Below, piece after piece: positions 59,301-63,177 of a stretch of 64,000 bases of DNA. The first letter of the stretch is position 1. Every line of letters starts with the position of its first letter. Source of the DNA: Chitinophagaceae bacterium (GTDB lineage: Bacteria; Bacteroidota; Bacteroidia; Chitinophagales; Chitinophagaceae); the NCBI GenBank assembly GCA_947447265.1, contig CANFKC010000026.1:1-64000 (forward strand), given 5' to 3'. The translations under genes were made by a program, and so were the position numbers. The notes beneath the pieces are model-generated. The model was not told the DNA's origin. It was given only the letters and a program-made list of their open reading frames with translations, and ran no database searches.

Positions 59301-60112
59301 GTCATTGCGAGGCCCTTCGCCGAAGCAACCTCACATTAACCACTATTAAAAAACACTTTGTCATCCTGACGTAGGAAGGATCTAATCACACTAGCCGCTC
59401 TCCACACTCGCTCTTCGCCCTATCATGGCGTGCCCCAGCCTGCGGTAGGCCAGCCTGTCCCGCTTTTTCAGCGGGAGGCTATCCGCTACTACTCCGCGCC
59501 CTCGACACCTCGGGCTTGCGGGGTATCCGCTACCGTCACTGCGAAGTATGAAGCAGACTCACGCAAAAAACACGCCCTGTCCCGCCCCTTCCGGCGGGAG
59601 TCATTGCGAGCGCAGCGAAGCAACCTCACATCGCGTTCTTGCTCGCCATCAGGTGAGATTGCTTCGTACCTCGCAAAGACCCACACGAGAGCAACAAAAA
59701 CACGAGTCTTTGCGAGCGCAGCGAAGCAACCTCACATCGCGTTCTTGCTCGCCATCAGGTGAGATTGCTTCGTTCCTCGCAAAGACCCACACGAGAGCAA
59801 CAAAAACACGAGTCATTGCGAGCGTAGCGAAGCAACCTCACTTCACGTTCTTGCACAGACCCACATAAGATTGTTTCGTACCTAGCAAAGACCCAAACGG
59901 GAACAACAAAAACACGGGTCATTGCGAGCGTAGCGAAGCAACCTCACATCAACCCCTAGCAAAAACACGAGTCATTGCGAGCCCGCCCCTTCCGGCGGGA
60001 GAAGCAACCTCACAAAACACGAGCGTCATTGCGAACGCAGTGAAGCAACCTCACATCACGTTCTTGCTCGCCATCTGGTGAGATTGCTTCGTACCTCGCA
60101 AAGACCCACCTT
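59301..60112. repeat. 106-bp tandem array of the gtcattgcgag palindromic repeat (left part)
   Basis: Units begin GTCATTGCGAGCGYAGCGAAGC and close with a complementary GATTGCTTCGTACCTCGCAA, so each full unit can fold on itself. Starts at 59600, 59706, 59812 and 59918 are exactly 106 bp apart; half-length copies start at 59971 and 60025 (53-54 bp steps). An isolated copy is at 59301. A second repeat type (GTCATCCTGACG...GGAAGGATCT) is at 59360, and 59390-59580 holds GC-rich mixed repeats with no gene. Confidence 0.92.
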
Positions 60113-60114
60113 GA

Positions 60115-60408
60115 TTAAACCATATCTTCACCCAAGTCCCTCCAGTCATGATTAAACGTATTAATCAGGTCCTCTTTCTGTTTTCTGCTACCTCCTTTAA
60201 TTCGCTTCTCCTCAGCAATAGCGTCTTCTACACGCACAAACTGCTGGTAATAAACAAGCATAACGCAATTGTATTTTGCCGTAAAACTCTCAGGATGAAA
60301 TTTAGTCTTGTGTTGCCACACCCTCTTTACCAAATCAGACGTTACGCCGGTATACAGGACGTTCCCATTTGGCGATGCCATAATATAAACCGTACCACCT
60401 TTCTGCAT
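60115..60408 (-). CDS. GIY-YIG nuclease domain protein
   Basis: This 97-aa single-domain protein carries the GIY-YIG fold: VYIMASPNGNVLYTGVTSDLVKRVWQH, with the YIM and YTG halves (about 8-10 and 19-21), the catalytic Arg29 and His33, and a candidate metal-binding Glu in AIAEEKRIKG. The C terminus (WRDLGEDM) is typical of the small YhbQ/UPF0213-like proteins. They act as endonucleases, and their cellular role is not well defined. The gene is embedded in the 106-bp repeat array: its stop lies about 4 bases from one copy and its start about 30 bases from the next. Confidence 0.88.
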   Translation of the reverse strand: MQKGGTVYIMASPNGNVLYTGVTSDLVKRVWQHKTKFHPESFTAKYNCVMLVYYQQFVRVEDAIAEEKRIKGGSRKQKEDLINTFNHDWRDLGEDMV

Positions 60409-60430
60409 ACCTAAAAATAAAAACTTTTCA

Positions 60431-60645
60431 CAAAAAACGAGTCATTGCGAACGCAGTGAAGCAACCTCACTTCACGTTCTTGCACAGACCCACATAAGAT
60501 TGTTTCGTACCTCGCAACGACCCACACGAGGAACAACAAAAACACGGGTCATTGCGAGGCCCTTCGCCGAAGCAACCTCACTTCACATTCTTGCACAGAC
60601 CCACGTAAGATTGCTTCGTACCTCGCAAAGACCCACACGGGGAGT
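60431..60645. repeat. 106-bp tandem array (right part)
   Basis: The array resumes with the linker tail CAAAAAACGA and two further units starting at 60441 and 60548 (107 bp apart). It ends a few bases from the stop codon of the HsdR-like gene. Confidence 0.9.
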
Positions 60646-60648
60646 TGG

Positions 60649-63177
60649 TTAAGCTACAAACCTGCTGCCATCCACATTATTTTTAATATACTCCGGAATC
60701 AGCACCCGTAGCTCCTTCGATAGCTGGCGAAAACTATCGCCATTAGGATGGGTATTGAGCAAAGCCAGGTTGCCGCTCTCTATTATTTCCCGGAAACCAT
60801 CATCAGTGAGGTAGGTTTTAAAAAAGTTCTTGGCATAAACAAAATACGCCTCATCAGGCAGGTATCGCGAATCAAACTTATCAAACTCTTCTTCCGATAA
60901 GTCATTCATATTCTTATAATAAGGTATCAGCCCCATTATTTTTTCTATAACCTCACGCATCGTTAGCCGCCTGTCAAGGCCTACTGCTTTGCGCAGTTTG
61001 CCCAGATTGTAATATTCATCCGGTTTATCAAAATAGTTATCTCTTATATAAGCTTCTATGGCTTCATAATCGCTCACCCGCATCAGTTGGTGCACAGTGT
61101 CGTCAGCCCTCACCTTTTCTTCAAAATGATCGTAATAAAGCATACGGTCAATCTTCATGCCATCTTCACCTATCTCATTTACCTGCAGGGTTTGCAGCAG
61201 GTCAGCTTTATTACTTTTATAATCATCCGGCCTTATATAAGTTGCTTCCCGTCCGCCATCTTTTGCCGATGGCTGCGCAGGCAATTTAAGCACCTCGTCA
61301 TAATTAAATTCTTCCTCAAAATATTCGCAGTTCGCAAAAAAATCAAACAGCTTAAACTTCTTCTTATCGGGGTGCAGCACCGTTACCGCCGCCTCTTTAT
61401 CTATATATTCTTCTAGGAAATTATGCTTGCGTGTTCCCCTGCCTTTAATCTGTATAAAATCAGTCGGCGAGAATATCGGGCGCATCAGGCATACATTCAG
61501 CAGGTCAGGGCAATCATAGCCTGTGGTCATCATCCCCACGGTTACGCAAACCCGTGTCTTGCTTGTTTTGTATAACTCATCAAAATTACCGGTGCCACCC
61601 AATTTGTTATTGGTAAAATTGATGGTCATCTGTTGCGCATCCATCACCTGCGACGTCACCTGCATAGCAAAATCAGACTGATATTTCCGGGGGAATATGA
61701 TATGAGCAAACTCGTTCAGAATCTGCGTCACCTTCGCCGCATGATTCTGGCTCACGCAAAATACTATGGTCTTCCCAATCTCGCCGGTTACCGGGTCACG
61801 GAAAGCGTTTTCCAGGAAAGTTTTACAGAAAATTTTATTGGTATTCTCGCTAAAAAACTTCTTCTCAAAATCGCGCTGAAAAAACGATTCCTCTTCCTCA
61901 TCGCCCTCATCGTTAGTCGTGGTAATGCTATAGCCCTTATCCGACAATAATTGGGTGGTAATTTCAGAACGCGCATTAACCACCGTCGGATTTATCAAAA
62001 ACCCTTCCTTAACACCATGCAGCAAGCTATACTGGAAAGTCGGCTTCCCATCAGCACAGCCAAATATGCGGTAGGTGTCCAGCAGCATGCGCCTTTCCAG
62101 TTCGCGAGGGTCGCGCTCACTCAGTTGCAGCGTATCAATCTTCTTTAAATAATCCTTCGGGGTTGCTGTAAGCCCCAGTTTATACCCTATAAAATATTCA
62201 AATACAGCCCTGCTGTTGCCGCCTATACTGCGGTGAGCCTCATCTGATATTACAAGGTCAAAATCCGTTGGCTTAAAAATACGCTTGTACTTATTTTTGA
62301 ACAAAAATGACTGTACCGTCGATACCACAATTTCAGCCTTGCGCCAATCATCCCGGTTTTCTTTGTAAACAACCGATGTGTAATCATTCTTTAAATATTG
62401 GGTAAATGCTTTATTGGCCTGATCTTCCAGTTCCAGCCTGTCCACAAGAAATAAAACACGGCGGGCGTTGCTGGTCCTTAAAAACAATTTTATTACAGCA
62501 GCGGAGGTTAGTGTTTTACCTGTGCCTGTAGCCATCTCAAACAGGAACCTGTCTTTACCTGCCTTCACTTCTTCCTGTATTCTTTCTATAGCCCTGACTT
62601 GGTAATGCCGCAAAAAGCGCAGTTTGGTTTCCTCTATGTATGCCTTGCGTTGCGCCGCGTCCGCATAGCGCGGATCCTTCGCATAATCTGGGTTCTGTGT
62701 AAGGGCAATATAATTATCTGCTACAACTTCACTTACCAAACGTTGAGGGTCGGGTGTAAACTCACTATAATTATTCGCTGTCTCAGGTGTAGGAAAACGG
62801 GTAATAATATTAGGATTGCCCCTTTCCAGGTCCCAGAAATAATGCTCATTACCATTCGAAAGTATGATAAACCTGCACTTTTGGGCTACTGCATACTTTC
62901 GGGTCTGCTCTTTTGCAGAAAGCGGATTAACTCCTTCCTTCTTAGCCTCCAGAACTATAAATGGGAAACCGTTGCCATCAAGCAACAGATAATCAGTAAA
63001 GCCGTTCTTGGTTTGTTCAAAATCATCCCCAAACTCATCAAGCAAGGTTTGCGTGATTTTTACATTATTCTCCAAAATAATATTAGCCGGTCCTTGCTCT
63101 TCATCAAAGAATCGCCACCCCGCTTCTTCAAGCAGTTTATTAATTTTAATCCGGGCATGGGCTTCCTTCGGTGGCAT
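60649..63177 (-). CDS. Type I restriction enzyme R-subunit-like helicase-nuclease (HsdR family)
   Basis: This 842-aa protein has an N-terminal HsdR nuclease domain: D62 in FTDYLLL, E77-A-K79 in VLEAKK, then the QTRKY (Q91-Y95) motif that is a type I R-subunit signature. An SF2 motor follows, with Walker A ATGTGKT (216-222), DEAH (312-315), a long C-terminal helicase half, and an EcoEI-R-like C-terminal region ending in VDGSRFVA. It would translocate and cut DNA when directed by HsdM/HsdS. No methyltransferase or specificity gene is present on either side in this window, so it may be unpaired. A TACATTTG box (63185-63192) is a candidate promoter. Confidence 0.88.
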   Translation of the reverse strand: MPPKEAHARIKINKLLEEAGWRFFDEEQGPANIILENNVKITQTLLDEFGDDFEQTKNGFTDYLLLDGNGFPFIVLEAKKEGVNPLSAKEQTRKYAVAQKCRFIILSNGNEHYFWDLERGNPNIITRFPTPETANNYSEFTPDPQRLVSEVVADNYIALTQNPDYAKDPRYADAAQRKAYIEETKLRFLRHYQVRAIERIQEEVKAGKDRFLFEMATGTGKTLTSAAVIKLFLRTSNARRVLFLVDRLELEDQANKAFTQYLKNDYTSVVYKENRDDWRKAEIVVSTVQSFLFKNKYKRIFKPTDFDLVISDEAHRSIGGNSRAVFEYFIGYKLGLTATPKDYLKKIDTLQLSERDPRELERRMLLDTYRIFGCADGKPTFQYSLLHGVKEGFLINPTVVNARSEITTQLLSDKGYSITTTNDEGDEEEESFFQRDFEKKFFSENTNKIFCKTFLENAFRDPVTGEIGKTIVFCVSQNHAAKVTQILNEFAHIIFPRKYQSDFAMQVTSQVMDAQQMTINFTNNKLGGTGNFDELYKTSKTRVCVTVGMMTTGYDCPDLLNVCLMRPIFSPTDFIQIKGRGTRKHNFLEEYIDKEAAVTVLHPDKKKFKLFDFFANCEYFEEEFNYDEVLKLPAQPSAKDGGREATYIRPDDYKSNKADLLQTLQVNEIGEDGMKIDRMLYYDHFEEKVRADDTVHQLMRVSDYEAIEAYIRDNYFDKPDEYYNLGKLRKAVGLDRRLTMREVIEKIMGLIPYYKNMNDLSEEEFDKFDSRYLPDEAYFVYAKNFFKTYLTDDGFREIIESGNLALLNTHPNGDSFRQLSKELRVLIPEYIKNNVDGSRFVA

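Follow-up and report, generated by a model that had tools for sequence, protein, structure and literature searches.

Small GIY-YIG nuclease genes associated with REP-type palindromes in Bacteroidota and other phyla

The window analyzed here, a 64,000-nucleotide stretch from a Chitinophagaceae bacterium, carries a palindromic repeat array at positions 59301-60645, in which a 294-bp gene for a small GIY-YIG nuclease splits one linker and beyond which the array continues. The array elements lie on the plus strand. A single repeat located by repeat matching (GTCATTGCGAGGCCCTTCGCCGAAGCAACC, 59301-59334) marks the left end, and the stretch from this first repeat to the remaining array (59340-59575) is out of register. 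Three 106-bp units follow: the first, an inverted REP pair (hairpin) plus linker, at 59600-59705 (fold z -4.9), the second at 59706-59811 (z -7.0), and a more degenerate third at 59812-59917 (z -1.9). Two half-units, 53 and 54 bp long, occupy 59918-60024, the latter of them containing a CCCGCCCCTTCCGGCGGG insert, and lead into the final unit ahead of the gene (60025-60110, z -3.0), whose linker is broken at ACCCACC. On the far side, the array restarts in the linker tail (CAAAAAACGA) together with a 107-bp unit (60430-60547, z -1.65) and closes with its last unit at 60548-60645 (z -4.2). A Type I restriction-like helicase/nuclease gene (HsdR-like, 60649-63177) adjoins the array.

Five copies of a 141-nt reference start at spacings of 106, 106, 213, and 416, the last of these jumps being one period plus 310 bp, and the half-units begin at 59907, 59960, and 60014, i.e., at the 53-54 bp spacing named in the original prediction, which had been made from the sequence alone. 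Its statement that full units repeat at exactly 106 bp agrees with the spacings of 106 and 106; a spacing further on measures 107 or 111, depending on the repeat family, so that the statement is true of only some units. The break that it placed inside a linker is found as described: the left array stops at ...CTCGCAAAGACCCACC at about 60110, and the right array resumes at about 60430 in the linker tail (CAAAAAACGAGTCATTGCGA), uninterrupted linkers reading GACCCACACGAGAGCAACAAAAACACGAGTCATT. All six folded dimers (83-87 nt) were better than the mean of dinucleotide shuffles (z -1.65 to -7.0), with two of them, in the third unit and at the restart, unexceptional in that 11/200 and 15/200 shuffles fold equally well. 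The exact word GTCATTGCGAG occurs 13 times in the genome from which the window was taken, six times in the array, and its reversed form only twice. Given these counts and the folding, the array is far beyond chance. Degenerate copies of the repeat are dispersed across many contigs of this genome. A second dispersed repeat family, seen at L008:1604-1658 (contig C4 of the same genome), has dozens of copies both there and in genome G002.

The single gene in the linker, an open reading frame at 60115-60408 on the minus strand, encodes a 97-aa nuclease of the REP-associated small GIY-YIG type. PF01541 is the sole Pfam family matched (45.2-45.5 bits against a cut-off of 22.6), and the HUH motif and catalytic tyrosine domain of RAYT / IS200-IS605 tyrosine transposases were not found. 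The AlphaFold2 model is confident (pLDDT 94, pTM 0.85), the predicted fold is intact, and the protein amounts to approximately a bare catalytic domain. Residues Y8, Y19, R29, and E67, which we take to be catalytic, are invariant in two alignments of 12 sequences each (A1 and A2). The nearest solved structure, both by sequence and by fold (Foldseek), is UPF0213 (1zg2), and the profile matched only two solved sequences, the UPF0213 / small GIY-YIG proteins 1zg2 and 1ywl. The window's protein is like these in being a small GIY-YIG protein; to our knowledge, no repeat association is known for UPF0213. PADLOC gave no match for the nuclease, nor did one query of phage records.

When named genomes were searched with alignment A2, the best 80 of at least 500 relatives yielded 79 loci, a set that leans to close relatives because only these were kept. 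By their titles, the loci presumably all belong to Bacteroidota (Chitinophagales, Sphingobacteriales, Cytophagales, Bacteroidales, and Flavobacteriales). An exact GTCATTGCGAG lies within 700 bp at 64/79 of these best-matching loci, and the sites number 220 in 129,240 bp near the genes versus 49 in 442,100 bp of outer flank. Repeats recur across the gene as direct copies at 41 loci, as inverted copies at 34, and as either at 56; at locus L222, the gene is bracketed by a perfect 64-bp inverted repeat. We additionally applied a strict palindrome detector (GTC, a 5-nt stem starting with AT, a loop of 3-22, the reverse complement of the stem, and C) and compared the 500 bp around the gene with the remainder. 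Strict palindromes occurred at 1.89/kb near and 0.093/kb far from the gene and at 0.007/kb in the reversed sequence; 46/79 loci passed the test, 32 of them on both sides, and 33/79 failed. Thirty loci from a survey of the order, the window's included, gave 1.80/kb near, 0.145/kb far, and 0.011/kb reversed, with 18/30 passing (12 on both sides) and 12/30 failing, and 51 loci of a tRNA-associated class, serving as control, gave 0.12/kb near and 0.008/kb far with 3/51 passing. Palindrome density thus drops about 20-fold beyond 500 bp of the gene. In many loci that fail, including the window's, which does so even at a 5-bp stem, inspection by eye reveals tags that are degenerate or have another spelling, and alternative repeat spellings such as CGTCATTTCGA and CGTCATTCCGA are found at some loci.

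A hexamer comparison made without a prior motif, between the 400 bp around the gene and stretches more than 1 kb away, gave TGCGAG at 74 of the 79 Bacteroidota loci near versus 17 far, CGTCAT at 70 versus 23, and GTCATT at 72 versus 26. The window's own units mostly read AGTCAT or GGTCAT at the tag. The tRNA-class loci were enriched in GTTCGA (43/51 near versus 6 far), which we take to be the tRNA T-arm, and GTCAT was not in excess there. A chance insertion of the gene into repeats is ruled out by the survey, namely by the share of loci with the exact word, the strict-palindrome density, and the hexamers.

Many relatives on viral contigs and in a plasmid collection are flanked by palindromes of other sequence that follow one plan, GTCAT-stem-loop-stem-C (e.g., GTCATTCCCGCGAAAGCGGGAATCCAG, GTCATGGCCGGGC..GCCCGGCCATCCA, and GTCATCCTCGGGCTTGACCCGAGGATCCA). 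In the viral-contig set (41 loci, near-identical contigs included), strict palindromes occurred at 1.78/kb near the gene, 0.088/kb far, and 0 in the reversed sequence; 23/41 loci passed within 500 bp, 16 of them on both sides, and 18/41 failed. The hexamers TCATTC (23 near versus 4 far, of 39) and GTCATT (25 versus 8) were enriched, with unrelated hexamers scoring similarly and CGTCAT outside the top 12. From 33 plasmid records, 16 loci were chosen to cover genera, and 11/16 passed the strict test with local spellings. Nine of these 11, one of which counts a palindrome overlapping the gene end, have palindromes on both sides (Neisseria gonorrhoeae, three Shinella, Azospirillum lipoferum, Aeromonas caviae, Rhizobium CIAT894, Neorhizobium, and Planktothrix), and Spirosoma and Photobacterium have them on one. 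Among the failures, Novosphingobium and Sphingobium carry inverted repeats of 31-37 bp tagged GTCG or GTCA and S. meliloti carries long direct repeats; no repeat pair was found at the Sinorhizobium C101 and Rhizobium tumorigenes plasmid loci, the former showing by eye a single CTCAT-tagged palindrome upstream. Several proteobacterial loci appear by eye to have a longer stem. The tag of the nearest upstream and downstream repeat points outward in 16/20 and 17/19 cases in the viral set, 29/39 and 23/39 in the Bacteroidota set, and 8/15 and 11/15 in the order survey, so that only the viral loci show a clear orientation and elsewhere it is a bias; in the window, the nearest tags face inward. The association between gene and palindrome is specific, as the samples of the survey proposed in the original prediction (64/79, 23/41, and 11/16 loci) favor, and it spans several phyla.

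The association is a property of one part of the small GIY-YIG genes. The window's genome has seven PF01541 matches, five of them small genes, and the loci of the four other small genes contain no exact TCATTGCGA. One-mismatch words are present in L002 and L003, in the latter within tRNA copies, and three of the four genes lie between a tRNA gene and its altered or partial second copy (Ala, Val, and Leu). These four rule out that small GIY-YIG genes in general are linked to gtcattgcgag. Within the broken tRNA copies are short palindromes (TCCCGA..TCGGGA, CCTGCCTGTCCGGCAGGCAGG), placed by eye in the anticodon or D arm (L001:1374-1499, L002:1745-1812, and L003:1308-1468). In the order survey (59 genomes including the window's own; 95 small genes in 90 loci among the matches listed, after exclusion of a match interrupted by two stops and another lying in a frame of 966 aa), a tRNA lies within 300 bp of 56/95 small genes and on the same strand in 56/56. 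Direct repeats flank 62/95, and the strict palindrome test was passed by 14/95, six of which also have a tRNA. A small set of control reading frames of 70-160 aa located more than 900 bp away in the same loci (n=31) had a tRNA in one case, direct repeats in two, and inverted repeats or strict palindromes in none. Tandem tRNA-plus-nuclease units occur at L057, L060, L064, and L107; these and L001, L002, L003, L037, L041, and L045 are among the tRNA-adjacent genes, which cover many isotypes and are often flanked on the opposite side by an incomplete copy of that tRNA.

Among loci whose protein is of the window's type (KGG-VYI motif or near it), 8/10 contain the 11-mer, allowing one mismatch, anywhere in the locus, and other members of a broader class have different repeats. 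A C.D.SYYTG-like subfamily (L019, L021, L031, L178, and L392) is flanked by inverted or direct repeats, with no tRNA near the five loci and no gtcattgcgag word in L019, L021, L031, and L178. At L023, L066, L085, and L102, long direct repeats of 63-217 bp (96-98% identity) bracket small GIY-YIG genes, with neither a nearby tRNA nor an Rfam match found, and an Rfam search of 12 loci lacking a tRNA matched no known RNA family.

Genomes that carry the gene are more often rich in repeats. The order sample comprised 248 genomes, 74 with a match to the gene at E up to 1e-15 (profile A1) and 174 without; at least five exact words were found in 28/74 of the former versus 6/174 of the latter (odds ratio 17, p 9e-12). 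Label shuffles within families reached 28 in 0/20,000 trials, the reversed word shows no difference, and the direction is the same at cut-offs of 4 and 8 words and at 1e-30 and 1e-35. A phylum set of 118 genomes (profile A2, E up to 1e-20; counted by eye) gave 22/49 with the gene versus 8/69 without (odds ratio 6.2, p 7e-5), or 21/47 versus 8/63 (p 3e-4) once eight genomes common to the order set were removed. The count of repeats with and without the gene that the original prediction had suggested came out in favor of a specific association in both samples. Fewer than five exact words were found in 46/74 genomes with a gene match, partly because other spellings are used. Repeats also abound without the gene: G271, a complete genome of one contig (3.9 Mb), holds 602 exact GTCATTGCGAG and no small GIY-YIG match, its only two PF01541 matches lying in large frames of 609 and 460 aa. 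G221 has 53 copies without such a gene, and G145, G302, and G362 have 32, 31, and 31 copies without a match at the threshold, G362 possessing a small GIY-YIG gene of another subfamily. These repeat-rich genomes indicate that the gene is not needed for the repeats to persist, and it may not be their sole source.

Presence or absence of gene plus repeats was seen at one compared locus. In Azospirillum lipoferum, sufB and sufC are separated by a block in which palindromes flank the gene on either side, and this block is absent in A. ramasamyi, A. oryzae, and strain B510, where the gap between sufB and sufC measures 91, 87, and 129 bp; the exact junction was not readable in this comparison of three relatives. 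Shinella PSBB067 has its own GIY-YIG gene with a different palindrome, apparently in the same sufB-sufC gap; the Azospirillum and Shinella loci are L355 and L367. For the window's locus, nine genomes of the same genus were searched, in which the neighboring carboxylase gene was found whole in seven, in part in one, and not at all in one. The array and the nuclease gene are absent from the 0.5-1.5 kb beside the carboxylase gene at 7/7 loci, as is the HsdR-like gene. Since protein identity is 85-88% and the intergenic DNA is too diverged, the junction cannot be placed at this locus, and no clean strain-level empty site was found. Flanks of a lone REP (L008) matched only at 65-75% identity without a usable junction, and the Rhizobium and Shinella loci gave no usable empty-site pair among the matches listed.

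Among six pairs of copies within one genome, three (L230/L245, L234/L276, and L246/L275) are collinear over the gene plus 0-57 bp and then have only shuffled repeats in common, one (L201/L202) additionally has more than 1 kb of array in common, and in the remaining two the similarity is confined to part of the gene. In G193, the copies have 82-88% identity, their repeats are interleaved, and sharp ends are lacking; those compared in G187 and G127 have at most one stretch in common. Several gene matches in the order and phylum sets contain internal stops.

The protein and its repeat diverge together. Across 30 non-redundant loci, drawn from 34 viral and plasmid loci that each have a strict palindrome, protein distance correlates with repeat-stem distance (r 0.55, permutation p 0.0002), part of which host relatedness could account for. 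A quick tree of 160 proteins, in which the 79 Bacteroidota loci were represented by a random draw of at most 30, was labeled by CGTCAT within 500 bp for the Bacteroidota REP class, and loci with both a tRNA and a palindrome were counted as tRNA. With 46 undetermined rows set aside, one change separates the 55 tRNA-labeled from the 59 REP-labeled rows; with these rows counted as outsiders, the REP label requires 17 changes and the tRNA label 12. Many forks are weak because the tree has few columns.

On balance, we think it probable that the gene encodes a putative REP nuclease, one of a group of stand-alone GIY-YIG genes residing in GTCAT-stem...stem-C palindromes that resemble CGTC REPs, with the REP as its substrate and with repair both expanding the arrays and copying the gene. 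The enzyme would cut the REP palindrome in which its gene resides, and the cut REP would be repaired by recombination with another REP cluster. Such repair could lengthen local tandem arrays, here in 106-bp units, and could copy the gene to other REP sites, with REPs as homology arms. The palindrome is most likely the substrate by analogy, given the precedent of the phage enzyme SegB and the fact that both the REP and the tRNA class consist of a minimal nuclease among amplified copies of one sequence. We infer REP cutting and the recombination route; the enzyme may also have a part in the spread of gene-free repeats, but the repeat-rich genomes that lack it call for caution about its creating the scattered copies.

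The original prediction compared the gene to RAYT transposases with their flanking REPs and suggested that a GIY-YIG enzyme could fill this role for the gtcattgcgag family. The parallel is apt insofar as the gene is flanked by REP-type palindromes, and these resemble the CGTC rather than the GTAG super-family. The association is specific, whereas movement of the repeats by the enzyme is hypothetical, and repeat-rich genomes occur without a match to the gene. A RAYT-like mobilizer that disperses CGTC-type REPs and REP pairs, with lone pairs as miniature derivatives of an element of gene plus REPs, is possible but rather unlikely. It would explain why repeat number goes with the gene, the tight bracketing by inverted repeats as in L222, the outward tags of the viral-contig loci, and the co-divergence of protein and repeat. 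It is harder to square with the genomes that hold tens or hundreds of copies but lack a gene match, and with an orientation bias that is weak or nil in the order survey; neither a target duplication nor a transposition intermediate was seen. We know of no small GIY-YIG domain that acts as a transposase, which further counts against this explanation. The tRNA clade, moreover, was not seen scattering tRNA genes, and with the same layout it makes an enzyme that lives in and cuts its target fit at least as well as one that is a transposase.

That tRNA- and REP-labeled genes stay in separate parts of the tree, that more than 500 bp from the gene the palindromes are about 20 times less dense, and that the palindromes vary by lineage yet keep one plan all argue against passive shelter, in which a mobile gene that does no harm would persist best where intergenic DNA is rich in repeats, with no functional tie to the repeats. 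We regard this as improbable, even though many repeats occur without the gene and REPs are intergenic as described by Di Nocera et al. 2013 (PMC3733652). Least credible is a domesticated regulator or processor, an Slx1-like structure-specific nuclease that would trim or resolve REP hairpins or cruciforms for the host and be kept beside its substrate: Slx1 structures are the next Foldseek matches after UPF0213, weak at E 0.025 or worse, and the repeats fold as hairpins, but the patchy presence (74/248 genomes) and the loci missing from relatives look selfish rather than housekeeping, and broken copies with internal stops occur.

A nuclease that cuts the REPs around it would bear on a gap in the REP literature. 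According to Di Nocera et al. 2013 (PMC3733652), REPs form two super-families, GTAG and CGTC, of which the latter, with CGTC, TGTC, or CCTC as its tag and including neisserial dRS3 and rickettsial RPE-4/6 and with Azospirillum lipoferum and Neisseria named, 'apparently lack a dedicated transposase'. A broader proposal, which we advance only tentatively, is that small GIY-YIG proteins are the missing enzymes of CGTC REPs in Bacteroidota, Proteobacteria, and Cyanobacteria and, by recognizing the GTCAT-tagged hairpin and cutting there with subsequent repair, build and disperse these repeats, with the tRNA clade doing likewise for tRNA-derived arrays. No earlier report of a GIY-YIG-REP link was found among the matches listed in the open-access literature, including the accessible text of later CGTC/GTAG REP papers (PMC12306157, PMC6006769). 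A co-diverging partner nuclease makes the question of the missing CGTC REP enzyme, as posed in PMC3733652, testable by cleavage, and if the partner role is true, an enzyme class unrelated to RAYT can occupy RAYT's niche. From the tRNA clade, a shared principle suggests itself, that of a small nuclease among amplified copies of its own target, for which SegB is a tested precedent (PMC13096335).

Among known systems, the RAYT parallel described in REPIN work (PMC3116915) is close in layout. As with RAYT, REPtrons, and REPINs, a small gene is flanked by tagged palindromes with repeat clusters beside it, and as with RAYT and GTAG REPs, protein and repeat types co-diverge and repeats also occur without the gene. 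The enzymes differ, GIY-YIG here and an HUH tyrosine transposase in RAYT, as do the tags, GTC(AT) here and GTAG there. Several proteobacterial loci fit by eye the published plan of CGTC REPs (CGTC, an AT stem base, and a CCA tail), whereas the gtcattgcgag repeats of the window and other Bacteroidota, unlike the four families described there, have a shorter, interrupted stem rather than an 8-9 bp stem, a 4-5 base loop, and a CCA tail. The phage GIY-YIG enzyme SegB, which is reported to cleave within tRNA genes and thereby to bring about segmental amplification (PMC13096335), resembles the enzymes described here, as do other free-standing phage GIY-YIG homing endonucleases, in being encoded by a stand-alone gene, and another clade here is also located at tRNA genes. 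In contrast to phage SegB, the present enzymes are mostly about 80-110 aa, are mostly found in bacterial genomes, and have one class located at REPs. SegB adjoins the sequence it cuts, and its cutting drives tandem amplification, a relationship that the GIY-YIG genes and their palindromes would mirror if the putative cutting takes place.
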